Below, piece by piece: positions 12,243 to 30,982 of a stretch of DNA of 63,662 bases. Within the stretch, counting starts at the first letter, position 1. Each line of letters begins with the position of its first letter. The notes beneath the pieces were generated by a model, which ran no database searches, was not told the origin of the DNA, and saw only the letters and a program-made list of their open reading frames with translations. A program made the position numbers and the translations under genes. Source of the DNA: Planctomycetota bacterium (lineage in GTDB: Bacteria; Planctomycetota; Planctomycetia; Pirellulales; PLA5); assembly GCA_003576845.1 (NCBI GenBank), contig QEVJ01000044.1:1-63662 (forward strand), written 5' to 3'.

Positions 12243-12269
12243 TTGCCAAATCCGAAATCTTGCTAGAAT
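12243..12269 (+). promoter_or_regulatory. Extended -10 promoter of the FeeM operon
   Basis: TTGCCA (12243-12248) and TAGAAT (12264-12269) are 15 bases apart. The short spacing is offset by the TG of an extended -10 (TGCTAGAAT). Transcription would start within or just before the dyad at 12276-12307. Confidence 0.45.
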
Positions 12270-12275
12270 CGACAA

Positions 12276-12307
12276 AGTCAAACGTTCTCGTCTTCCGACG
12301 TTTGACT
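12276..12307. promoter_or_regulatory. Perfect 10-bp dyad, operator or leader hairpin
   Basis: AGTCAAACGT (12276-12285) is exactly inverted at 12298-12307, with a 12-base centre. It lies 7 bases after the proposed -10 box, so it could be a repressor site at the start point or a 5' stem-loop in the transcript. Confidence 0.5.
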
Positions 12308-12501
12308 CTGGGTGACTGAATCACGTCTCGATGGCGCGTGCGCTGGCACGACCGCTCCCGTTAACCGCCGGCGACCGCTAAACGGGGCCACACGCTTGGC
12401 CCTGCCCCCTCGTTTTGACAGCCGTTCGCGGCGGCGTAGGTTTTTCATGATTCCCAGAATGCGCAGAGTTCAACTACCTATGACGAACGTAGCGGTCCGG
12501 C

Positions 12502-13275
12502 ATGAGCTTGTTGTCGACACTAAGAAGCAGCGTTTCCGGCGTCCCGATCGAGTTTAAGATCGCAGCAAACCGGGCCGAACGCAGCGCCGCCTTTGCCCTG
12601 ACCTATCAGGCGTATACGCGCGTCGGGCTCTGTCCGCGCAACGCCTTCGAGATGCGGGTCACGCCTTACCAGTTGCTCCCCACGAGCGACGTCTTTATCG
12701 CGCGGCTCGACGGCGAGGTTATCAGCACGCTGAGCCTCGTCTGCGACGGTCACCTCGGCTTGCCGATGGAAGTCATCTATCCCGAGGAGATCGCCCGCCA
12801 GCGTGCCGCCGGCCGCAAACTCGCCGAGGTCTCGTGCCTCGCCGACCGCCGCCGCGATCCGTGCCGCTATTTCCCCGTCTTTCTCGAACTTTGCCGGATG
12901 ATGGTCCAAAGCGCGCGTTATCGCGGCGTCGACCAGTTGCTCGCGGCCGTCCATCCGCGCCACGCCCGCTTCTATCGCCGCTATATGGCGTTCACCAACT
13001 TCGGCGACATCCGCGAATACCCCTCGGTGTGCAACAACCTCGCCGAGGCGCTGTGCCTCGACTTCCCGCGCATCGACCGCGAGCGCCCATCGACCTACGA
13101 ATTGTTTTTCGGCGAGCCCCTGCCCGCAGAAACCATTCGCCCGCGGCCCATATCGTGGGCCGACCAGGAGTTCTTCGCGCCGATCGCAAGCTGCGAAGGC
13201 AAGCTGCCGCTGGTCAAACAGCACGCCTTCGATTCGATTTCGATCGACGTTTCCACGATGCAGCCGGCGTTCTGA
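12502..13275 (+). CDS. FeeM-like N-acyl amino acid synthase (GNAT fold)
   Basis: The 257-residue protein resembles FeeM/acyl-homoserine-lactone-synthase-type GNAT enzymes, which join an acyl chain from acyl-ACP to the amino group of an amino acid such as tyrosine. Supporting segments are FALTYQAYTRVGLC near 31-44, VFIARLDGEVISTLSLV near 64-80, LAEVSCLADRR near 107-117, and RYRGVDQLLAAVHPRHARFYRRYMAFTNFG near 135-170, which is the GNAT acyl-CoA/ACP-binding region and the typical xxHPRHxxFYxRYxxF signature. No signal peptide is present. It is the first gene of a six-gene same-strand run with an ABC exporter, ThiF and nitroreductase. PEP-CTERM-associated acyltransferases are a related alternative. 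Confidence 0.8.
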   Translation: MSLLSTLRSSVSGVPIEFKIAANRAERSAAFALTYQAYTRVGLCPRNAFEMRVTPYQLLPTSDVFIARLDGEVISTLSLVCDGHLGLPMEVIYPEEIARQRAAGRKLAEVSCLADRRRDPCRYFPVFLELCRMMVQSARYRGVDQLLAAVHPRHARFYRRYMAFTNFGDIREYPSVCNNLAEALCLDFPRIDRERPSTYELFFGEPLPAETIRPRPISWADQEFFAPIASCEGKLPLVKQHAFDSISIDVSTMQPAF

Positions 13276-13324
13276 CGTTCCCGCATTCAAGGCCCCAAGA
13301 AAAGATTCCGAACGGACTCGCGCC

Positions 13325-14449
13325 ATGGGAACGCTGGCCCTCAAAACGCTGCTCGACGACCGCGGCAAGCTCCTCACGGCGCTCGTCGGCGTCGTCTTCG
13401 CCGTCGTGCTCGTCAACGTCCAGGGCGGGCTGTTCGTCGGACTCATTCGCAAAGCCAGCCTGCTCGTGGACAACGGCGCCGCCGACGTCTGGGTCGGCCA
13501 CCGCCACATGAACAACGTCGACTTTCCCCGCGACATCCCACGCCGCTGGGTCCATCGTGTGCGGGCGGTTCCGGGCGTCGCCGCCGCCGAACCCTACATC
13601 ATTGGCCACAGCGTCATGACGCTGCCCAACGGCGGTTTTGAGCAGGTCCTCGTCGTCGGCAGCGATCCGGCCACGCTCTTGGGCAACGCCTGGCGCGTCG
13701 TCGAAGGCCGCGCCGACGACGTGCGCCAAACCGACGGCGTTATCATCGACGTCTGCGACGCCGATAAAATCGGCCACCCGCAAATCGGCGACCTCCGCGA
13801 GATCGGCGGGCAGCGGGCTCGCGTCGTCGCTCGCAGCGAAGGCATCCTCGGCTTTCTCGTCACGCCCTACATCTTCACCACGATCGACCGCGCGGCCGCG
13901 TACTTACACAAACCCGCCGACAAGTGCTCGTACTTCGTCGTCCAGCTCGAGCCGGGCGCCGATCCCGCCGCCGTCTGCCGCGACATCCGCGCCTGCCTGC
14001 CGGAAGTCGAAGCCTGCACCCGCGACGAATACGCCGGCTGGTCGATCGACTACTGGCTCAAGCGCACCGGACTCGGCATCAGCTTCGGCGCGTCGACGCT
14101 GCTCGGTCTCGCCGTCGGATTGGTGATCGTCGCCCAAACGCTCTACGCTTCGGTGCTCGATCGGCTCTCGGAATACGCCGCGCTCAAAGCCATCGGCGCT
14201 ACCGACCGCCAGATCTTCGCGATCCTCTCCTCGCAAGCCATCGTCATGGCGATCGTCGGCTCGCTCGTCGGGCTCGCCATCGTGCTTGCCTGCCAGTCGT
14301 TCGTCAGCACCCCGCGGGCGCCGATCGTCGTGCCGTGGTGGCTCTCGTTCGGCAGCGTCACGCTCGTGCTCGTCATTTGCCTAGCCGCCGCCGCCGCCCC
14401 CTACCTCCGCATCCGCCGAGTCGACCCGGCAATGGTCCTCCAAACCTAA
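13325..14449 (+). CDS. ABC transporter permease, DevC/MacB type
   Basis: The 374-residue inner-membrane protein has the FtsX/MacB permease architecture: TM1 at about 17-37, a large periplasmic domain (40-250) and three C-terminal helices at about 258-280, 300-325 and 335-362. The loop LSEYAALKAIGATDRQIFAI is the typical FtsX coupling segment. The size and the neighbours (ATPase, then HlyD-like adaptor) fit the DevC subfamily, which exports glycolipids or other hydrophobic molecules in cyanobacteria. It begins 49 bases after the FeeM-like gene. The cargo is inferred to be the product of that enzyme. Confidence 0.88.
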   Translation: MGTLALKTLLDDRGKLLTALVGVVFAVVLVNVQGGLFVGLIRKASLLVDNGAADVWVGHRHMNNVDFPRDIPRRWVHRVRAVPGVAAAEPYIIGHSVMTLPNGGFEQVLVVGSDPATLLGNAWRVVEGRADDVRQTDGVIIDVCDADKIGHPQIGDLREIGGQRARVVARSEGILGFLVTPYIFTTIDRAAAYLHKPADKCSYFVVQLEPGADPAAVCRDIRACLPEVEACTRDEYAGWSIDYWLKRTGLGISFGASTLLGLAVGLVIVAQTLYASVLDRLSEYAALKAIGATDRQIFAILSSQAIVMAIVGSLVGLAIVLACQSFVSTPRAPIVVPWWLSFGSVTLVLVICLAAAAAPYLRIRRVDPAMVLQT

Positions 14450-14472
14450 ACCGTCCCCGCATCCGTCGGACC

Positions 14473-14530
14473 CGCATTTTGCCTTCTTCATTTTGCCTTT
14501 TGCATTTCCTCCGTGCCCTCTGTGGTTAAG
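14473..14530 (+). repeat. Pyrimidine-rich spacer repeat at the ATPase start
   Basis: Repeated TTTTGCCTT and TTCCTCCGTG units (CATTTTGCC twice) run into the start of the ATPase gene and end CTCTGTGGTTAAG. It belongs to the low-complexity spacer class seen before several genes in this window. It contains both candidate GTG starts. Confidence 0.45.
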
Positions 14531-15358
14531 CACCCGCCCCCAACGCCGCCCGCGGCCCCGATCGTCGTCGACGCTCTGTCGAAGACCTACGGTCGCGGCG
14601 CGGACGCAACGCCCGTGCTCCGCGACCTCAGTTTCTCGGTCGCCCGCGGCGAATGGGTGTTTCTCGTCGGTCCCTCGGGCAGCGGCAAGACGACGCTGCT
14701 GTCGATTCTCGGCTGCGTGCTCAGTCCCGACGCCGGCCGCGTCGAGGTGCTCGGCCGCGACGTGCGATCGCTCTCGCCACAAGCCGCCGCGGAACTTCGC
14801 CTGCGCAACATCGGGTTCATCTTCCAACGCTTTCATCTCATCCGCGGCCTCACCGCGCAAGAGAACGTCTCCGTGCCGCTCACGTTGCAGGGCGCGAACC
14901 AAACCGTCGCCCGCCGCCGCGCCGACGAACTCCTCGCCGCCGTCGGCCTCGCCGAGCATCGCCATCGCAACGTTCGCAAACTCAGCGTCGGTCAATGCCA
15001 GCGCGTCGCCCTCGCCCGAGCGCTCGTGACGAACCCCGACTTGATCCTCGCCGACGAACCGACGGCGTCGCTAGACGGCGAACACGGCCACGCCGCCATG
15101 CAACTCCTCCGCGAACTGACAACCCAATCCGGCGCAACCGTCATCGTCGTCACCCACGACCCCAGAATCCAATCGTTCGCCGATCGCGTCCTAAAACTAG
15201 AAAACGGCCAGCTCTGTGCGAACCAATCGCCGCTCTCGCCGAACACGCCTGCACCACGCAACCTTGGGACCGACGAAATCCGCTCGATAGGCGAGTTCAC
15301 GCCCACCCCGCCCGAAGAACCCCAAAACGAACCAGAACCTATGCTTGTAGTGGAATGA
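14513..15358 (+). CDS. ABC transporter ATP-binding protein, DevA/LolD type
   Basis: The 281-residue ATPase pairs with the permease upstream. Walker A GPSGSGKT is at 53-60, the Q-loop near IFQRFH at 103-108, the signature LSVGQCQRVALARAL at 157-171 (Val replacing the usual Gly in LSGGQ), and Walker B LILADEPT at 177-184, with the switch histidine in VVTHDPR near 204-210. The last 45 residues (LCANQSPLSPNTPAP onward) form a proline-rich tail beyond the usual domain. The start is a GTG at 14513 inside a pyrimidine-rich repeat; the GTG at 14522 is an alternative, and neither has a good Shine-Dalgarno. Confidence 0.9.
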   Translation: MPSVVKHPPPTPPAAPIVVDALSKTYGRGADATPVLRDLSFSVARGEWVFLVGPSGSGKTTLLSILGCVLSPDAGRVEVLGRDVRSLSPQAAAELRLRNIGFIFQRFHLIRGLTAQENVSVPLTLQGANQTVARRRADELLAAVGLAEHRHRNVRKLSVGQCQRVALARALVTNPDLILADEPTASLDGEHGHAAMQLLRELTTQSGATVIVVTHDPRIQSFADRVLKLENGQLCANQSPLSPNTPAPRNLGTDEIRSIGEFTPTPPEEPQNEPEPMLVVE

Positions 15359-15390
15359 CAACGATGCTCCGGTTTGTATGAGCCGTTTCT

Positions 15391-15430
15391 CCCGACCCCT
15401 GACCCCCGACCCCTGACCCCCGACCCCCGA
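15391..15430 (+). repeat. C-rich spacer repeat at the HlyD-like start
   Basis: Five tandem CCCCGACCCCTGA-type units end 3 bases before the ATG at 15434. The complementary strand has enough guanine runs to form a G-quadruplex. No Shine-Dalgarno sequence is left between the repeat and the start codon. Confidence 0.65.
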
Positions 15431-15433
15431 AAA

Positions 15434-16489
15434 ATGCTCCGCTTCCTCCTGATCGCCGCCGCCCTCGCCTCGGTCGCCACGCTTGGCGTGATGATCGACT
15501 CGCGCGCGACGATCGCGCCGCCGCTCGATGCGCAACCCGAACCGCGCGATCGGATCTTCGCGCCGGGCGTCGTCGAAGGGGCCACCGAAACCGTCGAGCT
15601 CCGCCCGCAGCTCGCCGGCCGCATCGTCGAGGTGCTGGTCCACATCGGCCAGCGCGTCGACAAGGGCGATCCGCTTCTCAAGCTCGACGACCGCGAGCAT
15701 CGCGAGCAAGTCGGCCTCGCCGCGGCCCAGCTCGAAATGGCCCGCGCCCAACTGGCTCAACTCGAAAACGGCGCCCACTCGCAAGAGCGCCAGCAAGCCG
15801 CCGCCGAAGTCCGCCGCCACCAAGCCCGGCTCAAACAGGCCCAGCGTTCGTGGGAGCGGATCGAACGTCTCCGCCGCGAAAGTGCCGTCGCCCAGCAGCA
15901 AGCCGACGATCAGCAGTCGGAAGTCGAGACGGCCACTGCCGCGCTCGAAGCGGCCCAAGCCCGATTCGCACTCCTCGACAGCCCTCCTCGGGCCGACGAA
16001 GTTCGCCTCGCCCGCGCCCGAATCCGCGCCGCCGAAGCCGAGCTACAGCTCGCCGAGATCAACCTCGACCGCTGCACGCTCCGCGCCCCCGGCCCCGCTC
16101 AGATTCTCGACGTGAACGCGCAAGTCGGCGAACTCACCGGTCCCGCGGCCGAGAAAGCCCCCATCGCGCTTGCCGACACCAGCCGCCTCCGCGTCCGCGC
16201 GTTCGTCGAAGAATACGACGCCCCCCGCGTCCAACCCGGCATGAAAGCCAAAATCACCGCCGACGGCCTCCCGAACCAAGAATTCACCGGCCAGGTCGCC
16301 GCCCTCAGCCCCCAAATGTCGCGCAAAATCCTAACCAACGACCAACCCGGCGAACGCCTAGACATAAAAACCCGCGAAGTCTGGATCGACCTCTCCGCCC
16401 CAACCCCACCCCAAACCGCCAACCTCGTCGTCGGCCTCCGCGTTGACGTCGTGATTGAATCACCGCACGAAGAGCCCCGGAATCCTTAA
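15434..16489 (+). CDS. HlyD/DevB-type membrane fusion protein
   Basis: The 351-residue periplasmic adaptor is anchored by an N-terminal hydrophobic segment (residues 2-20). A lipoyl/biotinyl half with GVVEGATETVELRPQLAGRI near 43-62 precedes a long alpha-helical hairpin (about 95-195, rich in Ala, Gln and Glu, RARIRAAEAELQLAEINL). The second lipoyl half and beta-barrel follow (AQVGELTGPAAEKAPIALAD). It would bridge the DevC-like permease to an outer-membrane channel. No TolC-type gene lies in the window. The frame is open upstream to 15374 through the C-rich repeat, so the ATG at 15434 is chosen. Its stop overlaps the ThiF start (TAATG). Confidence 0.88.
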   Translation: MLRFLLIAAALASVATLGVMIDSRATIAPPLDAQPEPRDRIFAPGVVEGATETVELRPQLAGRIVEVLVHIGQRVDKGDPLLKLDDREHREQVGLAAAQLEMARAQLAQLENGAHSQERQQAAAEVRRHQARLKQAQRSWERIERLRRESAVAQQQADDQQSEVETATAALEAAQARFALLDSPPRADEVRLARARIRAAEAELQLAEINLDRCTLRAPGPAQILDVNAQVGELTGPAAEKAPIALADTSRLRVRAFVEEYDAPRVQPGMKAKITADGLPNQEFTGQVAALSPQMSRKILTNDQPGERLDIKTREVWIDLSAPTPPQTANLVVGLRVDVVIESPHEEPRNP

Positions 16490-17472
16490 TGCCAACGACC
16501 ACTGAGCGAACTGAGGTCTTTCGTGCCGCGTCCGCGCTGATGCCGGAATTGGCGCCCGCGTGCAATCGGCCGGTCGCCGAGGTGGGTGGGCCTGCCGATG
16601 CCACAGCGTGGTCATACGACGGAGCATTCGCACGCAATCGAGGTCTCGTCTCGCCAGAGGAGCAGCAAATCCTCCGCCGCGCGCGGATTGCAATTGCCGG
16701 CATGGGCGGCGTTGGCGGCGTCCACCTGCTCACCCTCGCCCGGCTCGGCATCGGCCGCTTCACGATTGCCGACCCCGATACGTTTGAAGTCGCCAACTTC
16801 AATCGTCAGGCCGGCGCAAGTACGGCGACGCTCGGCCGCGGCAAAGCGGAAGTGATGGCCGAGCAAGTCCGTGCGATCAATCCCGAACTCGAAATCGACG
16901 TCATCCACGATGTCGTCGGCCGCCACAATATCGACGACTTTTTCGCCGGCGCGGACTTGTTCATCGACGGCGTCGATTTCTTTTCGATCGAAGCCCGCCG
17001 CCTGCTATTTGGAGAAGCCCGCCGCCGCGGTCTCTGGGCAATCACCGCGGGACCGATCGGGTTCAGCACGGGCTGGCTGTCGTTCGACCCGCGGGGCATG
17101 AGCTTCGACCGCTACTTCGACTTGAACGACCGCCAGTCGCACATCGACCAGGTCATCGCGTTCGCCGTCGGACTCACTCCGCGAGCGACGCACCTGAAGT
17201 ATCTCGACCTCTCCCAAGTCAACCTCGCCGAACGCCGCGGGCCGTCCGTCGGCGCATCCTGCCAACTCGCCAGCGGCATGGCGGCGACGGAAGCGGTCAA
17301 GATATTATTGTGCCGCGGCAAAGTCCGCCCCGCCCCGTACTACGCCCAATTCGACGCCTACCGCGGCATCCTCCGCCGCGGACGATTAACGTTCGGAAAT
17401 CGGCATCCGTTGCAGCGGCTTAAACGCAAGATGCTGCACGCCCGGGCGCAATCGCTTGGACTCTTTCAATGA
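16489..17472 (+). CDS. ThiF/E1-like adenylyltransferase
   Basis: The 327-residue protein is a ThiF/MoeB/E1-superfamily enzyme, which adenylates a carboxyl group using ATP. The nucleotide motif GMGGVG is at 71-76, D95 sits in IADPD, NFNRQ is at 103-107 and the conserved lysine at 119. The first 50 residues are an extra N-terminal arm. There are no paired CxxC zinc motifs and no ubiquitin-like partner gene nearby, so classical sulfur-carrier activation is unlikely. C257 in GASCQLASG could be a thioester site, but that is a guess. It is coupled to the exporter adaptor by a TAATG overlap and is followed 26 bases later by the nitroreductase-like gene. Confidence 0.85.
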   Translation: MPTTTERTEVFRAASALMPELAPACNRPVAEVGGPADATAWSYDGAFARNRGLVSPEEQQILRRARIAIAGMGGVGGVHLLTLARLGIGRFTIADPDTFEVANFNRQAGASTATLGRGKAEVMAEQVRAINPELEIDVIHDVVGRHNIDDFFAGADLFIDGVDFFSIEARRLLFGEARRRGLWAITAGPIGFSTGWLSFDPRGMSFDRYFDLNDRQSHIDQVIAFAVGLTPRATHLKYLDLSQVNLAERRGPSVGASCQLASGMAATEAVKILLCRGKVRPAPYYAQFDAYRGILRRGRLTFGNRHPLQRLKRKMLHARAQSLGLFQ

Positions 17473-17498
17473 CCCCGTGAACGTCGGCAACCTCCCGT

Positions 17499-18617
17499 AT
17501 GGGTTCGCTCCTTACAAATCCCGCCCTTGAAACACTCCTCGAAGCGGCGATCCTCGCGCCGTCGGGAGACAATACGCAGCCATGGCGGTTTATCGTCGAT
17601 GAAGAAGCCCGAACCATCGACGTCGAAGTCGACGAAGCCCGCGACCGGTCGCCCATGAACGCCGGCCAACGAATGGCCCGCATCGCCTGCGGCGCGGCCA
17701 TCGAGAACATGGTCCGAACGGCCGAACACAACTGCTGGCCACTCACCGTCGGTCTTGGCGTAGGCGACTCGCTCGCAAAACTAACGCTACACTCCGACGG
17801 CGACGAGCCAGGCCAGATCGACGAGGCGATCAAACGCCGTGTGACCAACCGACATTTCTACGACCGCCGCCCGATCGACGATGCGGTGCTCGCGAATCTG
17901 ATGCAGGACTCTCGCGTTGCCGTCGATGGTGTCCGAACGCATTGGATAATCGACCGCCGCAAGATCGCCGCGATGGCCGCCATTATCGGCGAAGCCGATG
18001 CGATCATGTTCGGCATCCGCGAAATGCGACGGGCCTTCCTGGACAACATCCGCTTCGACCTGCCACGAAATGCCGAAGCCGACGAAGGTCTGCCCACCGG
18101 TTCGCTAGGACTGAATCCACTCGACCACCTAGGTCTAAAGCTACTTCGCTACCTGCCCGATTGGGTCGTGCGACACGGTGGAGTGCTCAAGAGCTTTCGC
18201 AACCGCGCTCGCGCGCTCGTCGAAAGCGCCGCGGGTCTTTGCGTCCTCACCGCCGAAGAGGACTCAACGCCTGTGGACATTGCGCTCGGTCGCCAGCTTC
18301 AACGCCGTTGGCTAGACGTCACGGAATGTGGACTCGCCGCGCAACCGATGATGTCGGTTCCCGTCTTGGACGGGTGGACGACGGCAAACGGAAATCCGCA
18401 AACCGACCGCGCCCTTCAGTCGGTCGTCGAAAAGCTCGAAGGCGGAACGCGCGAAGTCGTTGGCATAGAAATCCGCCAGCGCATCGCGGCAATCGTGCGC
18501 TTCGGGCACCCAGGCGAGCCGCATTCTCGCACCGGTCGGCGAAATGCCGCGACTTGTTCCGCGATGCGAAGTGCGGATTGCCGCATTGCCGCAGGTCTCC
18601 CTGCCGATTCCGCGTAA
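17499..18617 (+). CDS. Nitroreductase-fold protein (Rv1355c C-terminal type)
   Basis: The 372-residue protein has a nitroreductase-like FMN-binding fold. APSGDNTQPWRF at 18-29 matches the family's FMN-contact motif, VTNRHFYDRRPI lies near 117-128, and the second half contains WLDVTECGLAAQPMMSVPVL, the usual C-terminal flavin-site helix. Members oxidise or reduce small molecules, and some (cyclodipeptide oxidase type) introduce alpha,beta-double bonds into amino acids. In mycobacterial Rv1355c, as I recall, a ThiF domain and this domain are fused; here they are adjacent genes. The last 40 residues are poorly ordered and may be a degraded tail. Confidence 0.8.
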   Translation: MGSLLTNPALETLLEAAILAPSGDNTQPWRFIVDEEARTIDVEVDEARDRSPMNAGQRMARIACGAAIENMVRTAEHNCWPLTVGLGVGDSLAKLTLHSDGDEPGQIDEAIKRRVTNRHFYDRRPIDDAVLANLMQDSRVAVDGVRTHWIIDRRKIAAMAAIIGEADAIMFGIREMRRAFLDNIRFDLPRNAEADEGLPTGSLGLNPLDHLGLKLLRYLPDWVVRHGGVLKSFRNRARALVESAAGLCVLTAEEDSTPVDIALGRQLQRRWLDVTECGLAAQPMMSVPVLDGWTTANGNPQTDRALQSVVEKLEGGTREVVGIEIRQRIAAIVRFGHPGEPHSRTGRRNAATCSAMRSADCRIAAGLPADSA

Positions 18618-18647
18618 GCTCAGAACCCTTATAATACGACTACCGCC

Positions 18648-18883
18648 ATGCCGCATCTCTCTTCGAGTTCATGGACGAAGAATGGCTCCCCAAGAGCCTC
18701 CGCGACACACTGCGCGACATCCTCGAATGCGGCAACGCGCGGCCCTTCCTCGACTACCATGACTAGGTGACGGATGAAATGCTCCGAGTCGCTCAGACGA
18801 CCGGCTGCACGAACATCGTCGAACTCGTAGCTCCGCCCACCGGGCTTCCCGCGCGAGTGTGCCCCGAAACCGCCAAGCCGTAG
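18648..18883 (+). pseudogene. Remnant of a SAM-dependent methyltransferase gene
   Basis: From 18648 a start MPHL is followed by an apparent two-base expansion (CTCTCT). Shifting frame then restores FEFMDEEWLPKSLRDTLRDI, which looks like the N-terminus of a planctomycete class I methyltransferase family that I recall as beginning PHxFEFMDxxWLP. The frame is broken by a TAG at 18764-18766, where a tryptophan (TGG) would fit. It then continues VTDEMLRVAQTTGCTNIVEL, a likely SAM motif I strand, before degenerating and stopping at 18883. The rest of the gene is missing. A TATAAT box at 18630-18635 precedes it. The family call rests on recall and was not searched. Confidence 0.55.
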
Positions 18884-19101: not shown

Positions 19102-20169
19102 TTACACTCTTCGACGACGCGAAACTTGCACGACACCAGCCACACCGAACAAACCGGCAAAAACTAGCAACGAACTGGGTTCAGGAATAAACTGGTGACC
19201 GATATGGAAGCTCCCATCGAGCCCTGCACGAAAGTCTCCAGTCGCATTCACACCATCGCCAGTTGGATTCCAGTCGGTGTCAACAGCGCCGCCGATGCCA
19301 GTGGCAAAGGAACCCCCAAAACCCCACAGGGCGAGGGCATTCAAGACGGCCAAGTCGGCACCATCCAGCCCCGACGAGATTGCCGTAATGTTGAATTGAG
19401 GAGTTTGCTGTGGTATGGCAACAAATGCTTCGTCTGTTTTCTGCAGCCCGGGCCCAAGCAGGGACGAAAAATCATCCACGTTGAAAACGAAGTTGTCCCC
19501 GCCGAATAAAGTGGCGCTGCCCGGGACGAGCATGGCGCTCTGTTGAGCGGTCGAATCTTCTCGAAACAGAATTGCATTGCTCCCCAACGGTAGGGCAATA
19601 TTAAGTGCACTTATGTTTGTCTGGCTGGCTGCTAGGTTTATGTCAGCTGCGACGTTGGCACCGCCGTTCAAGTCGACTCCAGAAATAACTTCCTCTTGGG
19701 GCTTAAGAGCATACTCTGCGATTCGATTCGTGTAATTCCAAGTATCTGGCTGATTCGCCTGTAGCCCGCCAGATTGCGAGATCAACGCGGCTCGTCCTGA
19801 AGTAAAAAGCGCGACTGGGGTTCCGCTTACGATCTGAATTGTCCCTTGCAACGCCGCAATTACATAGGCGGAACTTTGATCGGGAAACGCCACGCTGGAG
19901 AAAGTCTGCCCGTCTTGAGCGCCCCCTATGGGGACAATTGCAATTGTCGCAACGGTACCGTTCGTGAACGCAACGCCGGATGTCTGGTTAGTAAATAGGA
20001 CACCACCAGTCCCAAGTAGCGACTTTATGTCGTCTAACGGTGCCGGGTCCGCTGGATTGAACACGTTCTGTAACGCTACGTCGCCATTCGAAGTGATGAT
20101 CGCGGCGGAACTCGAGTTTTGCAGCGCCGACGCCAACAGAACCGCGGCTAGAATAAAAAGGTTCTTCAT
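19102..20169 (-). CDS. PEP-CTERM sorting-signal protein
   Basis: The 355-residue exported protein has a signal peptide (residues 1-23, MKNLFILAAVLLASALQNSS) and a classical C-terminal PEP-CTERM signal, FIPEPSSLLVFAGLFGVAGV, ending SRRRRV. The exosortase at 22370 should cleave the PEP region and attach or release the protein at the surface. The middle is Gly/Ser/Thr/Asn-rich and beta-structured, with no enzymatic motif. It uses more AT-rich codons than its neighbours. The start ATG at 20167-20169 has GGAGAG just upstream. The sigma-like gene lies 140 bases upstream on the same strand, and a strong terminator lies downstream. Confidence 0.9.
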   Translation of the reverse strand: MKNLFILAAVLLASALQNSSSAAIITSNGDVALQNVFNPADPAPLDDIKSLLGTGGVLFTNQTSGVAFTNGTVATIAIVPIGGAQDGQTFSSVAFPDQSSAYVIAALQGTIQIVSGTPVALFTSGRAALISQSGGLQANQPDTWNYTNRIAEYALKPQEEVISGVDLNGGANVAADINLAASQTNISALNIALPLGSNAILFREDSTAQQSAMLVPGSATLFGGDNFVFNVDDFSSLLGPGLQKTDEAFVAIPQQTPQFNITAISSGLDGADLAVLNALALWGFGGSFATGIGGAVDTDWNPTGDGVNATGDFRAGLDGSFHIGHQFIPEPSSLLVFAGLFGVAGVVQVSRRRRV

Positions 20170-20309
20170 CTCTCTCTCCGAGTTATTGATACCGTTGCAA
20201 ATCCTGCTCTTGACGTTGTTAGGTCGAAAATCACGGATTCCTGACAGCACATCCCTCAAAAATCGTCTAATGGCCCACGCACGTAAAGCCGCGCCGCATT
20301 CACTGCCCC

Positions 20310-21431
20310 CTAACCCGTCAAAAACCGCTCCAACTTCCTTCGCACCCGGTGATTCAATTGCCATTCGTTCGCCTGCGACCGCCCGTTGGGGTGGCCGTTG
20401 GGGCTGGGTTTTGGGGTGCTGCTTTCGCCGTTCACGCTCGTTTCTGCCGGGCTATCCGACACGACGATCTCTTCGTAAAACGTTCTCTCCGCAGGAGTTA
20501 GCGTCGCCGCGAACTCGGCTAGGGTGATTTGTGTGGCTCCCGTTGCGGGGGCGCTTTTGGCGGGGAGCTTCTTGTCCGACGTGGCGACGGCCGTTTCTCG
20601 CTTTCGTCGCCGCTTTTCGGAGCGAAACAGCCGCGATGCTTCGTCCTTCGCCAGTAGGGCCAGGTAGGTCGTCAGCGAGCACCCCCGGCCCGGGTCGAAC
20701 CGGTCGAGGAGTTTAGCATCGTCCCGGACGACGGCATACCACACCCGGGCGGCGAGTTCGTCGACCAGGTTTGGATCGAGCCGCCGCGAGCCGATGATCG
20801 CCCGAATCGCGGCCAAGAGCGGTTGGTGGCAGCGGTAATAGAGGTCGTCCCAGGCCCCGGGTTCTTTGGCCAGGGCGCGGTCGATGAGTCGGCGGTCGGC
20901 GGCTGGGGTCAGGAGTCGGGGGTCAGGGGTCGGGGAGGGGGCGGGATTCGGGATTCGGGATTCGGGGGAACGCTTCGGTCGCACGCTGCGCGTGCTTGCC
21001 TTGTGCTTGCCGGTGGCGGTCTTCTTGACGCGGGCTTTTCTCGCGAATTTCTTCGGCGATTTGCGGGGTTTCGTGGCCCGCGCCGGCTTGGCTGTGCGCG
21101 CTGGCGGCGTAGAAATCGCGGGTACTGTCGCGTCGATTGCCCCCGGTGAATCACCGGGGGCTAAATGGGTGCGGGCGCCGTTAAGCTTTCGAACGCCGTT
21201 GATGCGTTTCGCGGCGCCATTCAGGGCCTTGGCAACGCCATTGAGCGCACCGTTCACCGCGCCGCTTGCATGGCCGTTGAGCTTGGCAGTCTTAGCCCGC
21301 GATCCCCGACCCCTGGCCCCCGACCCCTGACCCCCGGCCCCTTTTGCACGGATCGAGCGCTTTTTCTGCTGTTTCTGCACGATCGATGCTGCGGTGTCAG
21401 GCGCCGGCGAACCTTCGAATAACGGCGACAC
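20310..21431 (-). CDS. Sigma-70 region 2-like protein with repeat-filled N-terminus
   Basis: The 373-residue product has a region 2-like core at about 180-270 (AWDDLYYRCHQPLLAAIRAI, LVDELAARVWYAV, GCSLTTYLALLAKDEASRLF). That part of ECF sigma factors binds core polymerase and the -10 element. A normal sigma-4 helix-turn-helix is not evident; after LTPAERTFYEEIVV (about 310-325) there is only a basic tail. The first 175 residues are Lys/Arg/Ala/Asn-rich. They include translated genomic repeats: C-rich units near 31-45, a REP palindrome near 89-97, and a tandem 7-mer plus G-rich unit near 153-172. The start is a GTG at 21429-21431, and a later start within the frame is possible. Confidence 0.6.
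   Translation of the reverse strand: MSPLFEGSPAPDTAASIVQKQQKKRSIRAKGAGGQGSGARGRGSRAKTAKLNGHASGAVNGALNGVAKALNGAAKRINGVRKLNGARTHLAPGDSPGAIDATVPAISTPPARTAKPARATKPRKSPKKFARKARVKKTATGKHKASTRSVRPKRSPESRIPNPAPSPTPDPRLLTPAADRRLIDRALAKEPGAWDDLYYRCHQPLLAAIRAIIGSRRLDPNLVDELAARVWYAVVRDDAKLLDRFDPGRGCSLTTYLALLAKDEASRLFRSEKRRRKRETAVATSDKKLPAKSAPATGATQITLAEFAATLTPAERTFYEEIVVSDSPAETSVNGESSTPKPSPNGHPNGRSQANEWQLNHRVRRKLERFLTG
20891..20970. repeat. G-rich spacer repeat inside the sigma-like gene
   Basis: Units of GGGGTCAGG, GGGGTCGGGG and three exact tandem GGATTCG 7-mers (21 bases, so frame is kept) lie inside the reading frame of the sigma-like gene. They encode a Pro/Ser/Arg-rich linker. On the plus strand the guanine runs could form a G-quadruplex. 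Confidence 0.6.
21136..21169. repeat. REP-like palindromic repeat, copy 2
   Basis: The 11-bp arms 21139-21149 and 21151-21161 surround a single A, with the same ATT and TAAATGGG flanks as the copy at 3576-3609. Relative to that copy, one G-C pair in the stem has become C-G, a compensatory change. It lies in frame within the sigma-like gene. Confidence 0.75.
21302..21342. repeat. C-rich spacer repeat inside the sigma-like gene
   Basis: Tandem CCCCGACCCCTGG/CCCCCGACCCCTGA units match the spacer at 15391-15430 but lie within a reading frame near the N-terminus of the sigma-like protein, encoding a Gly/Arg/Ser-rich stretch. Confidence 0.6.
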
Positions 21432-22369: not shown

Positions 22370-23386
22370 TTGTCGCGAGCAACGAGAAAACGATCGCGAA
22401 GCCTTTCGCCGACGGCCGCTGCGGCCGCGGCGAAGCAAGCCGAGCGCCGCGCCGAGCCGCGCTCCGTCGAGGGGACCTTGTCGTACGACTGGTCGAGTTG
22501 GCAATTCGTCGCCGGCGCCGCCGCCTTGCTCGTCGCGCTCGTCTGGTCGTACTGGCCTACGCTCGCCGAAACCGTCCATGCCTGGGATACGATTCCCGAC
22601 TATTCGCACGGCTACCTCGTGCTGCCGATCGCGGCGTGGTTCTTGTGGGCGCGGCGCGGAGAGTTTCCGCGCGACCAACTGCGCTCGTCGCAATGGGGTT
22701 GGGCATTCCTTATCGCCGCGCTCGCCATTCGCTGGGCCGCGGCATATATCTACATCGAAGCGGTCGACGGCTGGACTTTGCCGCTGTGGATCGCGGGAAC
22801 GGTGCTGCTGCTATTCGGTCCCGTGGTTGCCCGCTGGGCGGCGCCGGCGATCATTTTCCTGTGGTTCATGTTTCCGCTGCCGTATTCCGCGGAAATGTTC
22901 CTGAGCCAGCCGCTGCAAGGCGCCGCGACGAAGATCAGCACCGCCGTGCTCCAGATGCTCGGCCAGCCCGCCTTGTCGGAAGGGAATGTGATTCTGATCG
23001 GCGAACGGCAGTTCGAGGTCGCACAAGCGTGCTCCGGGCTGCGTATTTTCGTCGGCATCTTCGCGTTGGCCTTCGCGTATGTGCTATTTACGCGGCGCGC
23101 CTGGTGGGAAAAGGCGATGCTCCTGGCGAGCGCCGTTCCGATCACGCTCGTTGCCAATTCGACCCGGATCGTCGCCACGGCGTTGCTGCAACAGTACGTA
23201 TCCGGCGAGGCGGCGGACAAGTTCACGCACGATTTTGCCGGCTGGGTGATGATTCCATTTGCCGCCGCGCTATTCTGGCTGTTCCTGGTTTACATTTCGC
23301 GGCTATTCCCCGAAGTCGAAACGGTGAGTATCCGGCAGGCGAAGAGTCCCGTCGCCGCGCCGGCCGAGCCCGCGGTTCACGCCTGA
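22370..23386 (+). CDS. Exosortase
   Basis: The 338-residue multispanning inner-membrane protease-transpeptidase processes PEP-CTERM proteins. About eight hydrophobic segments start near residue 45. The catalytic residues are in place: Cys221 in AQACSGLR, Arg266 in NSTRIV and His287 in FTHDFAGW. The N-terminal 40 residues are basic and cytoplasmic. The frame begins with a TTG at 22370 without a good Shine-Dalgarno, and I see no better start before the first helix. It begins the long plus-strand polysaccharide locus. Its likely substrate in the window is the PEP-CTERM protein at 19102-20169. EpsI is a separate gene 7 kb downstream rather than fused. Confidence 0.92.
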   Translation: MSRATRKRSRSLSPTAAAAAAKQAERRAEPRSVEGTLSYDWSSWQFVAGAAALLVALVWSYWPTLAETVHAWDTIPDYSHGYLVLPIAAWFLWARRGEFPRDQLRSSQWGWAFLIAALAIRWAAAYIYIEAVDGWTLPLWIAGTVLLLFGPVVARWAAPAIIFLWFMFPLPYSAEMFLSQPLQGAATKISTAVLQMLGQPALSEGNVILIGERQFEVAQACSGLRIFVGIFALAFAYVLFTRRAWWEKAMLLASAVPITLVANSTRIVATALLQQYVSGEAADKFTHDFAGWVMIPFAAALFWLFLVYISRLFPEVETVSIRQAKSPVAAPAEPAVHA

Positions 23387-23467: not shown

Positions 23468-25705
23468 ATGAGTTCGCCCCACGTTTCCGAATCCGCGTTG
23501 ATCGCGCAGACAGCGGGTCCGCCCGCGCTGTTGCGACCGCCGCCAATACAATTCGGTGGTCCGCCGAAACCGGCGCCGCAGACCGGCGCCGGAATCACGA
23601 TCGGCTTCGTCTATCGTTCGTTCCAGCACTGGTGGCGGGTGGCGATTCCCGCCGGTCTCGTTTGCGCCTTGTTGGCTGGAGCCGCGGTATGGCTGACGTG
23701 GACGCCGAAGTATCGGGCATACGCGATTATCGAGATTCCCGACCGGGGCGGAGTTTTGTTGCCCACATCGCCGGACACCTCGCCTCGATTCGCGCAGACA
23801 CAGTTGCGGTCGATCGCAAGTTCGGTCGTTCTGACGCCGGCGCTGGCCGATCCCGAGATCGCGAAGATTCCCGAAATCAAACGCCAAGTCGCGCCGCTGG
23901 AGTTCTTGGAAGAGACGCTAAAGGTTTCGGGCGAGGGCGGCTCCGAACTATACCGCATCGAGTACGTCGGCGAGAACGCCAAGGACGCGGCGACCATCGT
24001 CAATGGCGTCATCCGCGTCTACTTGGGCAAGCTCGTCGCCGACGAAAAGACCCGCCGCGAGGAAATGCTGGTTCAGCTCGAGAACGTCAAGCTCAAACGC
24101 GAGGCCGAAATCAGGTCGATTCGCGAAAAAATCGTCGAAATCGAGAAGACGGTCGTGGGTAAGGTTCCCGCAAAGGGCGACACGGGCGCCGCGGGCAGCG
24201 TGCTTTCGCCGGTGTTCGCGTTGCAGCAGCGGCTCGTCGAGATCGAGGCCGACCGCGAAGTTCTGAACGCCCAGATCGCCGCCTATGGTCAGCCTGTCGC
24301 GTCGAAGCCGCCCAAAATTCCCGACGACGTTTTGGACGTCGAAGTCAAGATGCACCCGGAAGTCCGCGAGCAGAGCCGGGTAATATCTGCGATGCGGCTG
24401 CAACTCGAAGATATCGAGAAGAAGTCTCGCCAGGGCAAGCAGAGCTCCAGCTATAAGGATTACGCCGCTTTGATCGTGAGGGCCGAAAAGGAACTCGCGA
24501 CGTTGCAGGACGAAGTCCGCGCCCAGTTGGAACTGCGCAACTCCGTGGTGTCGACGGCCGATCGCGGGCAAGAAGCCGTGCAATGGCGGCAGCGTCTTAC
24601 CGCGCTCGACGCCGAACACGCGTTGCTCAAGCGGCGCTACGACGAATATATGAAGTCGCTCAGCGAGAGCGGCGGCGATGCCGTTCGCCTTCAATTCAAA
24701 TACGCCGATTTGGAGCGCGAGTCGAGCGTCTTCAATCTGATCGCCCAGCGCAAGCTGCAGGTTGAGACCGAAACGCACAATCCCGCGAAAGTGATCGTCC
24801 GGTCTGACGCCCAAATTCCCCCCGCTCCGATCGAGGCCTGGCCCTACAAGCCGTTGATCCTGTTCTGCGGCGCGGCGTTCGTGCTGCCGTTCTTCGTGGT
24901 CGTCGGTTGGGAGAAGCTCTCGCGGCGGATTGCAGACGCGGACCAGCTATCGAGCGAGTCGACGCTGTCGATCATCGGCGAGATCGCCCAACTTCCGACG
25001 CGCCCCGTGTTGTCCGGCGGCGCGGCATCGCGACGAAAGATTCGCCGCGACCTCGGCCTGTTCCAGGAAAGCGTCGATGGCTTGCGAACCTGCCTCCTGC
25101 TGTCGGAAGCAACCAGTTCCCACCGCGTATTTGCCGTCACGAGCGCCGTCAGCGGCGAAGGCAAGACGAGCCTCGTCTCCCAACTCGCGATCAGCCTCGC
25201 CCGCGCCACCGGCAAGCGGGTGCTGATCGTTGACGCCGATCTGCGGTCGCCGAATCTTCACGAAATTTTCGAGATCCATCTCGAACCGGGCCTCGCCGGC
25301 GTGCTCCGCAAAGAATGCGAAATCACCGACGCGATCGTCGAGGAAGTCGCCGAAGGCGTGCACCTCTTGCCGGCCGGCCGCGTCGCAACGAGCCCACATA
25401 ACTACTTGGGTAACGGGGCGATTCCCAAGCTCGTCGCGCAGCTTCGCGAAGTTTACGACTTCGTGGTCATCGACACGCCGCCGATCCTCTGCGCAAGCGA
25501 GTCGTTGGTGATCGCCAAAGCGGCCGACGGGACATTGCTTTGTGCCCTCCGCGACGTGAGCCGCTCGCGGCAGGTGCGCCTCGCTTCCGATCGGCTCAAC
25601 ATGGCCGGCGTGAACCTGATGGGCGCCGTGCTCAGCGGCACATCGGCACGGCGCTATGCCTCGACATACGGAAACTATGCCTACCTGGAAGATTCGCTCT
25701 CCTAA
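23468..25705 (+). CDS. Wzc/GumC-type polysaccharide co-polymerase with tyrosine autokinase
   Basis: The 745-residue inner-membrane protein combines a Wzz-like co-polymerase and a bacterial tyrosine (BY) kinase, controlling chain length and export of exopolysaccharide. TM1 lies at about 57-77 and TM2 at about 458-480, with a long coiled-coil periplasmic region between (EADREVLNAQIAAYG and similar). Cytoplasmic kinase motifs are Walker A SGEGKTSL at about 560-567, Walker A' VLIVDADLR near 584-592 and Walker B VVIDTPP near 665-671. The C-terminal RRYASTYGNYAYLEDSLS supplies the tyrosine cluster for autophosphorylation. The first 45 residues are proline-rich. It follows the exosortase gene by 81 bases. 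Confidence 0.92.
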   Translation: MSSPHVSESALIAQTAGPPALLRPPPIQFGGPPKPAPQTGAGITIGFVYRSFQHWWRVAIPAGLVCALLAGAAVWLTWTPKYRAYAIIEIPDRGGVLLPTSPDTSPRFAQTQLRSIASSVVLTPALADPEIAKIPEIKRQVAPLEFLEETLKVSGEGGSELYRIEYVGENAKDAATIVNGVIRVYLGKLVADEKTRREEMLVQLENVKLKREAEIRSIREKIVEIEKTVVGKVPAKGDTGAAGSVLSPVFALQQRLVEIEADREVLNAQIAAYGQPVASKPPKIPDDVLDVEVKMHPEVREQSRVISAMRLQLEDIEKKSRQGKQSSSYKDYAALIVRAEKELATLQDEVRAQLELRNSVVSTADRGQEAVQWRQRLTALDAEHALLKRRYDEYMKSLSESGGDAVRLQFKYADLERESSVFNLIAQRKLQVETETHNPAKVIVRSDAQIPPAPIEAWPYKPLILFCGAAFVLPFFVVVGWEKLSRRIADADQLSSESTLSIIGEIAQLPTRPVLSGGAASRRKIRRDLGLFQESVDGLRTCLLLSEATSSHRVFAVTSAVSGEGKTSLVSQLAISLARATGKRVLIVDADLRSPNLHEIFEIHLEPGLAGVLRKECEITDAIVEEVAEGVHLLPAGRVATSPHNYLGNGAIPKLVAQLREVYDFVVIDTPPILCASESLVIAKAADGTLLCALRDVSRSRQVRLASDRLNMAGVNLMGAVLSGTSARRYASTYGNYAYLEDSLS

Positions 25706-25725
25706 TCCCGGCCCGCCCGATTCAC

Positions 25726-25763
25726 GCAGCGCCTCGCGCTGCGGCTTAACGACCCTCTAAGCC
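25726..25763. repeat. Two tandem hairpins between kinase and TPR genes
   Basis: GCAGCGC-CTC-GCGCTGC (25726-25742) is followed at once by GGCTTA (25743-25748) pairing with TAAGCC (25758-25763). There is no T-tract. It may slow or process the transcript between the genes, or be a dispersed repeat. Confidence 0.45.
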
Positions 25764-25827
25764 GTCCCCGCCTACGAAAAGAACGCATCGCTATTCGTAA
25801 CCTCGCGGTTGCTTGGTTGCGTCGCCA

Positions 25828-28800
25828 ATGAGCATGACTCCTCCGCATTCTGACGAATCCCGCGACTCGCAGCGCGACGCGATGCCCGCCGCGTCGCATA
25901 CGCGCCGTCCGACGCATCGGGCGGTGAACTTCCGGCTGTTGATCGCCTCGGTGCTCGCCCTAGCGTTGCTCGGCGGGGCCGCGTACCTTTGGCGCAATCA
26001 TCAGGTCGAGAAACTCGCCGATTCGCTGCTCGCACGCGTGGCGCAGCTCGAAGAGGAGAAAGACTGGACAAAGGCCGTCGCCTACCTGCACCAATATCTG
26101 CGGCTCAATCCCGACGAAGACGAAATCCACGTCCGCGCGGCGCTCGTCTTCGACCACGATCTGCAAACCCCGAGGCAGCTTGACGAGGCCACGCGGCTGT
26201 ACTACCGCGCCCTGGGGGTGGCGCCCGACGACGCCCGCTTGCGGCGCCGCCTCGCCGAATTGCTGCTCGAATTGGGACGACGGGCCCAGGCGGAAATCGA
26301 GGCCAAGAAGCTGCTCGAAGCGGAAGAAACCCGCGACGACGCGACGGCCAAACGCATCGTCGCGCTGGTCGCCGCCGCCGAATCACAAATCCGCGGCACG
26401 GTCGAAGCCGCCGAGGCGGCGTTCCATACCCTCGACCGAGCGAACGCGGCCCAGCCGGGCGACGCTACGGTCGCGGCCCGCCTCGCCCTCCTGTATCGGA
26501 CCCGCGCCGAAAAACTCGGCAAGACGAACGAAGAGGCCGCAAAGCTCGCCGATGACGTCATCGAAAAGATGATCGTCGCCGCTCCGAATAGCGCCGATTC
26601 CTTCTTGACCCGCGCACAATACCGCGCGGCCTTTTCCTTGCCCGGCGCCCGCGGCGATTTCGAACGGGCCCTCGAACTCGAACCCCGAAGCGAGACGGCG
26701 TTGCTCGCGGCGGGACAGTATTACCTGTCCGCCCCGCCACCCGAACGCGATGCCGACCGCGCTCGCAAGCTGTTCGAACGGCTCGTCGAAGTCGCGCCCA
26801 CGCGCGACGCCGGCTACTTCTTCCTGGGCCGCGCCCACAAAGCCCTCGGATCGACCCAAGCGGCCGTCGATACGTGGAAGCTCGGATTACAGCGGACGGG
26901 GGGCGACAACGAGGCGATCAACGTCGAGCTGTTCGAGACCCATTTGGCCGCTCGCGATTTGGCCGCCGCCCGAGACGCCCTCGATCTCCTGATTAAACGG
27001 GCCGAAGCGAATTCGCTCTTTCTGCGCACCGACGCCCGCATTCGCCAGCGATTCATGCTCGCGCGGCTCGAAGCGCAATGGTTGCTCGCCAATAACGAGC
27101 CGTCGCGCGTCGTTTCGCTCTTGACGAATGCAATCGTCACCTCCGGATCGCTGGGCACGAGCACCGAGCAAAATCCCGAACTGGACCGCGTCCGCGTCCT
27201 GTTGGCCCAGGCGTATGCAGCGCTCGAGAACTGGGATCAAGCGGCGGCGGCGTACAGCGAAGTCGCCTCGCGCTCGACCACGCCGTGGGGTTCCGCCCTG
27301 CTCGCCGCCGAAGCCTGGAAGCGTGCCGGACAACTCGACAAGGCGATCGCCGGCTACCGCCAGGCTGCCGAGCAGGAACAGGCTCCGCCGCAGCTTTGGC
27401 TCGGCTTGGGACAAGCTCAACTCGAACAGCAGGCCCGCATCGGCTCCTTGGACCAACGCGATTGGAAGCCCTTCTTGGACACGCTCGCCAAGGCCAAGCA
27501 AGAGAACCCAGGTTCGTGGGCCGTTCGGTTCCTCGAAGTCGACTACTTTCTCGCCCAGCAAACCGACGCGGACCGCCAGCGGGCCGAGGCGCTGCTCCGC
27601 GCGGGCGAAAAGGACTACGAAACCGAGCCGCAGTATTGGCAGCGATTGATCTTCGCCTACGAACGCTTCAAGCGCCCCGACGACGCCGACCGCGCTCTGC
27701 GGCAATACCTGAGCCTCGAAAAGAACGCCATCGAGGCCGCCGTCGCCCGCGTCAATCTGTTGGCCATGCGAAAGCAATTTGCCGAAGCCGAAAAAATTCT
27801 CGCGACGGCGATCGCCGAGTCGCCCGCGCCGCTCCGCAAAGCGCTCCTGTACCGTCAAATGCAACTGGCGGTCGAAGCGGGCGACCTCGCCGCGGGCCGC
27901 CGGCGGCTCGCCGCGCTGCGCGCCGACGATCCGACGAACCTTCGCATCTTGCGGCGCTCCGCGGAACTGGCCTTCGAAGCCCGCGATTGGAAGGAACTGG
28001 CACAGCTCGACGAGCCGCTCCGCAAGGCGGAGGGCGAAAACGGGCACGGCTGGCGATTCTATCGCGCAGCTCATTTGCTCGCCGACCCGGCCCGCCGTTC
28101 GCCGAACGACCTGGAAGAAGCCGAACGCCTGGTGACGGCGATTCTAAAAGACCGGCCGCGCTGGACGCCGGCCACGGTGCTCATGGGGCAAATCGCCGAG
28201 GCCCGCGGCGACGTGTCGACGGCTGTCGAGCGCTACACGTCCGCCGTCGAAGCCGGCGACCGGCGAATCTTCACTTACGAACGCTTGATCAGCTTGCTCT
28301 ACCGTCTCAACCGCTTCGCCGAAGCGCAGCAGATCATCGACCAGATGGGCCGCGGCGCATTTTCGTCCGACCGCCTCGAGTCGTTGGCGATGGCGGTCGC
28401 CGTGCAGCAAGACGAGCGCGGCCGCGCCGTCGAACTTGCCCGCCAATCGCTCGCCGAACGACCCGAAGACGCCATGCGCTACGTCTGGCTCGCCGAGATG
28501 CTGCAATTCGACGGCAAGCGCGAAGAAGCCATCGCCACGCTCCAAAAAGCCGTCAAGCTCGCGCCCAACGACATTCGCCCTTGGAACGCCGTGTTCATGT
28601 ATCACCTCCGCGGGCGCGATATGGCGAAGGCCGAACGGACGCTCCTGGAAACGACGAAACAAGTGCCGTTGGAGCCCGCGCAAAAAGCGTTTGTTCTCGC
28701 TCAGGGTTATGAGCTCTTGGGCAAACGCCCGGAAGCGCTGGCGAACTATCGGCAAGCCAGCGAGCTCGCGCCCAAGGACATTGCAATCCTCTCGCGGCTG

Positions 28801-30309: not shown

Positions 30310-30313
30310 CGCG

Positions 30314-30982
30314 ATGTCTCTCCTTACGCAACGAAGAATTCCGCTCACCGTCGTCGGCATCCTGCTGGCTACCGTCCTTGCCGGCGTGCTGCACGGCCGG
30401 TTGTCGCGCCGCTGGGGCGCTCCGGCGGACATCGCCGCGACCGCCGCGAAGCTCGACCAGGTACCCGAGAGAATCGGCCCCTGGCAGTTGGAGTCGTCCG
30501 ACGATCTCGAAGACGAGGTCCAGAAGATTCTCCGTTGCGAAGGCAGCTTGAAGCGCCGCTACGTGAACGTCGACACGGGCGCGTCCGTCGTCGTGGCGCT
30601 CTTGCTCGGGCCTTCCGGTCCCATCGCGGTCCACACGCCGGAAATCTGCTATTCGAGCCGCGACTACGTAATCGACTCCGAAAAGCAGGTCCTCACGCTC
30701 AAGACTCCCGACGACCGAGGCGACGAGTTTTGGGCAATCACCTTTCGCGGGCGCACGGCCGCCGAGGAACACCTGCGCGTCTACTATGGCTGGAGCACGG
30801 GCGACGCCTGGAGCGCACCGGAATCTTCGCGGTTCGAGTTCAGCGGCGAGCCTTGGCTCTACAAGATTCAAGTGGCCGGTAGCATCCCCGGGGCGGATGC
30901 GTCGGCCGCAGACCCCTGTCGGGATTTTTTGGAAGCGTTTGTACCGGCAATTCGAAACACGCTCGTATCCACTAAGGGATAG
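30314..30982 (+). CDS. epsI: Exosortase-associated EpsI family protein
   Basis: The 222-residue protein matches the EpsI family, a periplasmic partner of exosortases that is often fused to them. A signal-anchor helix is at about 9-27. The conserved VHTPEICY is at 106-113, followed by SRDY and later VYYGWSTGDAWSAPES. The start ATG at 30314 lies five bases after the TPR gene stop. Its exact role is unknown, but the cysteine in the HxPExCY motif is nearly invariant and suggests a functional site. Confidence 0.88.
   Translation: MSLLTQRRIPLTVVGILLATVLAGVLHGRLSRRWGAPADIAATAAKLDQVPERIGPWQLESSDDLEDEVQKILRCEGSLKRRYVNVDTGASVVVALLLGPSGPIAVHTPEICYSSRDYVIDSEKQVLTLKTPDDRGDEFWAITFRGRTAAEEHLRVYYGWSTGDAWSAPESSRFEFSGEPWLYKIQVAGSIPGADASAADPCRDFLEAFVPAIRNTLVSTKG

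Follow-up and report, generated by a model that had tools for sequence, protein, structure and literature searches.

A planctomycete operon predicted to make and export an N-acyl amino acid or acyl-oxazolone lipid

The genome of a Planctomycetota bacterium (GenBank assembly GCA_003576845.1, contig QEVJ01000044.1) carries six adjacent genes for an N-acyl amino acid synthase (NAS), an ABC exporter and two further enzymes, and the locus raises the question of what these genes make and whether the exporter carries it. The DNA analysed, positions 1 to 63,662 and called the window below, is one contig of a 7.05 Mb genome (289 contigs, 99% complete), whose named relatives are Planctomycetota, several of them Pirellulales. 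The six genes probably form an operon for the biosynthesis and export of an N-acyl (dehydro)amino acid or acyl-oxazolone lipid of the stieleriacine or tyrazolone kind. The enzyme trio and its chemistry are already published (OxzA/OxzB, TyzABC, TrzAS and the stieleriacine clusters), and the window is a further member; the new part is the link between the exporter, DevCAB, and the synthase, FeeM, of which no description was found in the literature searched, itself only partly covered. The six genes are the following.

12502..13275, + strand: FeeM-type N-acyl amino acid synthase, 257 amino acids (PF21926, 2g0b)
13325..14449, + strand: DevC-like ABC exporter permease, MacB_PCD and FtsX domains (TIGR01185, PF12704, PF02687)
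14513..15358, + strand: DevA-like ABC exporter ATPase (TIGR02982, ABC_tran)
15434..16489, + strand: DevB-like periplasmic adaptor of the HlyD family (TIGR02971, PF16576, PF13437)
16489..17472, + strand: ThiF/E1-type adenylylating cyclase, TyzB/OxzB-like (NF006077 PRK08223)
17499..18617, + strand: nitroreductase-superfamily flavin oxidase, Acg/TyzC type (NF047509, 2ymv model match)

All six open reading frames (ORFs) are intact, and ORF analysis gives intergenic gaps of 49, 63, 75, −1 and 26 bp, in agreement with an earlier sequence-only reading that described six same-strand genes with short gaps; the families named there are also those returned by Pfam, NCBIfam and the model folds.

By sequence and predicted fold, the first gene product is a FeeM N-acyl amino acid synthase, its acyl transfer activity being predicted. 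The protein matches PF21926 along the whole profile (positions 1-158 of 158; E 1.9e-45, 154.9 bits against a cut-off of 27), and the FeeM structure 2g0b is its sole PDB sequence match (E 1.4e-10). Its AlphaFold model (predicted local distance difference test score, pLDDT, 81.5, with a disordered tail beyond about residue 205) superposes on 2g0b with Z 23.2 and a root-mean-square deviation of 2.5 over 177 residues, against Z 16.4 for the best ordinary GNAT and 15.9 for LasI. Residues E109, P152, H154 and Y158 show no variation across 36 cluster homologues. An ordinary GNAT identity is ruled out by the PF21926 and 2g0b matches and by the fold comparison; the sequence-only reading had proposed this very check, and the protein groups with FeeM.

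Comparable enzyme sets have been characterised elsewhere. In M. tuberculosis, TyzA, TyzB and TyzC acylate the amino acid, cyclise it with ATP and desaturate it with O2, giving acyl-tyrazolones (PMC10404671). TrzA and TrzS perform the same chemistry on tryptophan with cyclisation first, an order that is not obligate for Tyz (PMC12856293), and TyzC accepts N-acyl tyrosine for desaturation even when it is not cyclised (PMC10404671, PMC12856293), so that the earlier reading was too strict in expecting a dehydro product solely from the full set of three. Like the tyrazolone and tryptazolone systems, the window combines an N-acyltransferase, a ThiF cyclase and an Acg-type flavin oxidase that would act on one substrate. 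TrzS is a ThiF-oxidase fusion, whereas the ThiF and oxidase of the window are separate genes. No DevBCA exporter is described for TyzABC or TrzAS; mmpL9 adjoins tyz with no role shown, and MmpL is only suspected of tyrazolone export (PMC10404671). OxzA/OxzB of Pseudoalteromonas rubra, in the account of PMC10404671, also unite acyltransferase, ThiF and nitroreductase domains, with ThiF and oxidase fused, unlike in the window.

The ThiF protein of the window matches Pfam ThiF (E 3.7e-45) and passes the curated cut-off of NF006077 PRK08223 (421 bits against 266), and it aligns in register with the ThiF parts of PRK14851, a ThiF-nitroreductase model, and PRK14852. The latter is a single model of 989 positions with FeeM, ThiF and nitroreductase in series, to which three window proteins match in register; it therefore provides a direct fusion link among three of the six genes. 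ThiF-oxidase fusions were also found repeatedly among the compared loci. The E1 ATP-site residues (GGVGG 73-77, D97, N105-R106-Q107, K119 and D160) are invariant in 14 ThiF homologues, and D160 is probably the counterpart of an Asp that, as mutation showed, TrzS needs for its activity (PMC12856293). Structures of the t6A cyclase TcdA are the best PDB matches of the window ThiF, and distant ones include MccB, PaaA and ThiF/MoeB. TcdA closes a ring on a small acylated amino acid group, and the match suggests, independently, an oxazolone step. At another locus (L056:11674-13359), a single open frame carries FeeM and ThiF domains and a DevC-like gene follows.

The oxidase gene adjoins the ThiF gene, and by its model the product is an Acg-type flavin oxidase of the nitroreductase superfamily. 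Its matches are Pfam Nitroreductase (E 3.7e-08), PRK14851 (E 6.1e-38) and the Acg family NF047509 (E 3.6e-42, 145 bits, under that model's own cut-off of 199); the model (pLDDT 89) superposes on the Acg homologue 2ymv with Z 30.0 over 294 residues, the next structure reaching Z 17.8, and the flavin mononucleotide (FMN) motif APSGDNTQPWRF is conserved. For TrzS, too, Acg is reported as the nearest solved structure (PMC12856293). By its genes, the cluster fits the acyl-oxazolone (Oxz/Tyz/Trz) systems, the oxazolone itself being a predicted product.

The analysis directly shows which families the genes belong to, their predicted folds and conserved residues, and how they co-occur and are linked; the chemistry of the pathway is drawn by analogy from characterised homologues, and the substrate of the exporter and its use of a TolC channel are likewise inferred. 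FeeM would transfer a fatty acyl group, probably from acyl-acyl carrier protein, onto the amino group of an amino acid, by analogy an aromatic one. ThiF would adenylate the carboxylate with ATP, allowing the amide oxygen to close a five-membered oxazolone (azlactone), and the FMN oxidase, consuming O2, would take two hydrogens off the alpha-beta bond. What results may remain an acyl-oxazolone or hydrolyse to an N-acyl dehydroamino acid. Finally, DevC, DevA and DevB, with one of the TolC-type channels encoded in the genome, would move this amphipathic product across the outer membrane. The sequence-only reading had likewise proposed that the set makes, activates, oxidises and exports an N-acyl amino acid; families, folds, fusions and neighbourhoods support that outline, which lacked the oxazolone cyclisation and described a trio chemistry already in print.

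What, then, is the exporter? The permease has TIGR01185 devC as its best NCBIfam match (E 2.6e-36, 125 bits, curated cut-off 290) and the ATPase has TIGR02982 heterocyst_DevA (E 4e-67, 226 bits, cut-off 296), and for the adaptor TIGR02971 DevB comes second (E 1.9e-34, 120 bits, cut-off 129). Because all three curated cut-offs are missed, the window exporter is, on these scores, a subfamily related to DevBCA and not the cyanobacterial DevBCA itself. Its three genes are contiguous, and proteins of the OEP family (TolC-type) are encoded in the same genome. Permease, ATPase and adaptor belong to the same families as those of the Anabaena DevBCA-TolC glycolipid exporter (PMC6161253), from which the window differs in scoring under the curated cut-offs and in being linked to FeeM instead of glycolipid genes.

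Several observations tie this exporter to the synthase. The genome itself has one FeeM, one ThiF of this type and two DevC-type permeases, the second being 29% identical to the window DevC. Because these copies are so few and the set recurs in relatives, the six-gene arrangement is, from its distribution, more than chance; that a widespread ABC exporter lies here by accident is ruled out by the 29%-identical sole paralogue and by co-occurrence across genomes. The exact six-gene order is seen again in a sister genome (L038/L058) and in L064.

A search of 397 genomes of the order, with a threshold of E <= 1e-90 for the DevC subfamily, found that subfamily in 38 genomes and FeeM in 50, with both in 36 (Fisher p = 3e-37, a guide and not an exact value given the kinship of the genomes). 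The two DevC carriers without FeeM (G014:C100 and G030:C6, loci L259 and L267) have the weakest DevC matches, and their DevCAB may have another substrate. Of 14 genomes in the genus to which the S. maiorica-like genome belongs, 13 carry both FeeM and DevC, and the remaining one carries neither. Among 40 DevC loci, FeeM lies within 1 kb in 15, within 5 kb in 26 and within 10 kb in 28, where about 0.6% per locus is expected. Most of the comparison genomes are draft assemblies, so that a missing linkage may reflect contig breakage, and the hidden Markov models of the neighbourhood analysis were built from the loci of this comparison itself. FeeM may lie upstream of DevC in line, divergently or downstream; the linkage has therefore been kept through rearrangement. 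The recurrence in relatives that the sequence-only reading had asked for is thus found. Its further point, that a dedicated exporter would set this cluster apart, does not hold, as DevCAB is also present at the corresponding Stieleria-like loci and adjoins FeeM in many genomes across the order.

The tailoring enzymes are distributed differently. ThiF of the window type is present in 5 of 197 genomes of the order, and ThiF in 16 of 49 FeeM/DevC genomes checked; of those 16, all have FeeM and 15 the DevC subfamily. On these counts, ThiF fails as a strict marker for such systems. Several loci (L163, L240, L242, L244, L245 and others) have FeeM and DevCAB with neither ThiF nor oxidase in the stretch. 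By these gene contents, the partner of the exporter is the synthase, FeeM and DevCAB being the conserved core and ThiF and oxidase an optional tailoring pair. Because FeeM and DevCAB exist without ThiF, the cargo of the exporter is most likely N-acyl amino acids in general.

In the DevC tree, the window protein belongs to a clade of 38 rows (support 100/98), of which 30 are located close to FeeM or ThiF; the sole other DevC of the same genome falls outside this clade. Permeases from beta- and gammaproteobacteria, desulfobacteria and Omnitrophota stand far from this planctomycete clade, and exporters of this superfamily therefore joined such clusters more than once. One inherited unit for the exporters found near ThiF in every phylum is ruled out by this tree. 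An alphaproteobacterial locus (L080) has the window order, FeeM-DevC-DevA-DevB followed by a ThiF/oxidase fusion, with a DevC outside the 38-row clade. In six betaproteobacterial loci (L099, L102, L117, L124, L127 and L136), a tandem pair of permease-like genes stands upstream of the ThiF-oxidase genes in divergent orientation, by sequence an exporter of another type beside the same enzymes.

The nearest published relatives are the stieleriacine clusters, in which NAS, ThiF and nitroreductase genes are co-located (PMC7293339, PMC12479983). Two compared genomes were assigned by the layout of their clusters, G671 as close to S. maiorica Mal15 and G778 as close to S. neptunia. In G671, a fatty-acid desaturase gene is followed in turn by a methyltransferase gene, ThiF, and then the oxidase with four FeeM genes; the published Mal15 cluster has four NAS genes, the last being Mal15_37430 (PMC7293339), and DevCAB of G671 starts 3.9 kb past the fourth FeeM, just beyond the published boundary. 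In G778, FeeM genes at 4.18, 4.27 and 5.73 Mb fit nasY1-3 (tags 30590, 31280 and 41680) at about 1.37 kb per gene, and the cluster runs ThiF, oxidase, DevC, DevA, DevB, FeeM. By this layout, DevCAB of S. neptunia would be located between Enr13x_31230 and nasY2. The words transporter, exporter and ABC are absent from the main text of PMC12479983, the 2020 paper mentions 'putative transporters', neither specifying them nor clearly indicating what they do (PMC7293339), and neither paper names DevCAB as the exporter. The 2020 paper also proposed the same lactonisation-oxidation route, and deletion of nasY1 was later found to lower stieleriacines (PMC12479983).

Window and Stieleria-like ThiF proteins lie on one side of a supported branch of the ThiF tree (26 rows, 97/92). 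The loci share FeeM/NasY, ThiF and nitroreductase, DevCAB in the layout-matched genomes, and PEP-CTERM and exopolysaccharide genes nearby (PMC7293339). The window differs in its single FeeM, where Stieleria has three or four, in its compact operon on one strand and in that no fatty-acid desaturase was seen, and in place of the methyltransferase there is a decayed methyltransferase-like gene. Because only this remnant is present in the cluster, though the genome may encode a methyltransferase elsewhere, the product need not, on gene content, be a stieleriacine.

The remnant lies directly behind the six genes, and other features follow it.

18659..18880, + strand: decayed methyltransferase-like gene, with an in-frame stop and its 3' part lost
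19102..20364, − strand: PEP-CTERM-type exported protein, recognised by eye (C-terminal PEPSS, a hydrophobic stretch and RRRRV)
22370..23386, + strand: exosortase of the EpsH/XrtA type (TIGR02602, 166 bits against a cut-off of 105.55)
23468..35507, + strand: XrtA/PEP-CTERM-associated exopolysaccharide locus (TIGR03087, 444 bits against 316.65; TIGR01007, 124.7 against 108.05)

The extent of 12243-18883 first given to the cluster is thus right for the six genes, which end at 18617, and wrong for 18617-18883, which is not nitroreductase and holds the remnant. The latter is 49% identical over 74 residues to an intact ORF of 275 amino acids at the same place in the sister locus (L038:6860-7684). 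A VVELGAG motif in the sister protein suggests a class I methyltransferase for both; no Pfam family or PDB structure matched the sister protein. Because stieleriacine clusters also hold a methyltransferase, the loss may, by analogy, change the product. The 19102-20364 protein had no NCBIfam match at 1e-6. The exopolysaccharide locus encodes a tyrosine autokinase, a PrsT-like TPR protein (1498 amino acids), a sugar transferase, a TIGR03087 glycosyltransferase, a Wzm-type permease and an O-ligase.

A consensus scan found no promoter upstream of FeeM, and the single promoter first proposed is not supported; the likely candidate, near 12242-12268 (TTGCCA, 15 nt, TAGAAT), has a sub-optimal spacer. 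The DevA start is uncertain, as its GTG falls within a dispersed repeat. For DevB, the longest ORF begins at 15374, and homology from its residue 21 together with an ATG favours 15434. The DevC-DevA gap (14466-14550) and the DevA-DevB gap (15380-15430) hold two distinct dispersed repeats, TTTTGCCTTTTGCATTTCCTCCGTGCCCTCTGTGG and CCCGACCCCTGACCCC-type, both with many more near-copies genome-wide and the CCCGACCCCTGACCCC-type also at 20896 and 21305 of the window. A minus-strand ORF at 58853-62173 (1106 amino acids) has an unusually high GC content at codon position 1 (0.82).

Certain facts weigh against the proposed synthesis and export of one lipid by these genes. The DevC subfamily is missing, at the threshold used, from 14 of the 50 FeeM genomes; some DevC loci lie 40-70 kb away from FeeM or on separate contigs; and no outer-membrane channel gene was found within the cluster. 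DevCAB could carry another lipid, a lipoprotein or a polysaccharide made nearby. The main stieleriacine synthase of S. neptunia is not nasY2, the FeeM located within the cluster, and no oxazolone has ever been observed for stieleriacines (PMC12479983).

One alternative is that the product is a structural amino lipid kept in the envelope, which DevCAB would transport from the inner to the outer membrane without acting as a secretion pump. Tyrazolones made in Rhodococcus are mainly in cellular fractions (PMC10404671), and exporters of the DevBCA type serve the heterocyst glycolipid envelope (PMC6161253). However, stieleriacines are present in S. neptunia culture broth (PMC12479983) and act on other bacteria (PMC7293339), and retention in the envelope is rather unlikely.

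Alternatively, the trio may make an acyl-oxazolone or dehydroamino acid and merely share the locus with an unrelated exporter, for instance of an envelope lipid or of an exopolysaccharide or PEP-CTERM component. The exosortase and exopolysaccharide genes directly downstream would fit, as would the DevC-clade loci distant from FeeM and the other lipids, such as heterocyst glycolipids, that DevBCA-type exporters carry (PMC6161253). Yet FeeM-DevCAB persists at loci with no exosortase detected in the stretch (L163, L244, L245 and L252), presence and absence are joint over the 397 genomes and within one genus, and the linkage survives changes of order and strand, all of which makes an unrelated exporter quite unlikely.

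The exosortase invites a further thought. A 79% identical copy adjoins the sister cluster, and an exosortase is also near the cluster in relatives L038, L040, L041 and L250. A linkage of NAS genes with PEP-CTERM and exosortase genes was reported in 2011 (Craig 2011, as cited in PMC7293339); the window is similar, FeeM lying 9-10 kb from the exosortase and near the PEP-CTERM protein, and adds ThiF, oxidase and exporter. It is conceivable, and very unlikely, that the reactive oxazolone is exported intact and serves as an extracellular acyl donor, placing N-acyl dehydroamino acid groups on amine or thiol functions of PEP-CTERM proteins or of the exopolysaccharide encoded alongside, a surface lipidation coupled to the exosortase locus. 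If true, this would explain the recurrent neighbourhood of N-acyl amino acid synthases and exosortases.

A peptide-modification pathway in which the window ThiF would adenylate a carrier protein or a peptide, like MccB, ThiF and MoeB, is hardly to be expected, since against its superfamily membership and the distant MccB, PaaA and ThiF/MoeB matches stand its place in PRK08223, PRK14851 and PRK14852, the fusions joining ThiF to FeeM and oxidase, TcdA as its best PDB match, and the lack of any small precursor or carrier ORF recognised in the operon by a search that was not exhaustive.

For bacterial N-acyl amino acids and acyl-oxazolones, comparative genomics here gives a single candidate exporter, present or absent together with the synthase. 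By layout, this candidate lies within the cluster of the genetically tractable S. neptunia. It also offers a DevBCA-type handle on FeeM pathways without ThiF, which searches for the trio overlook.

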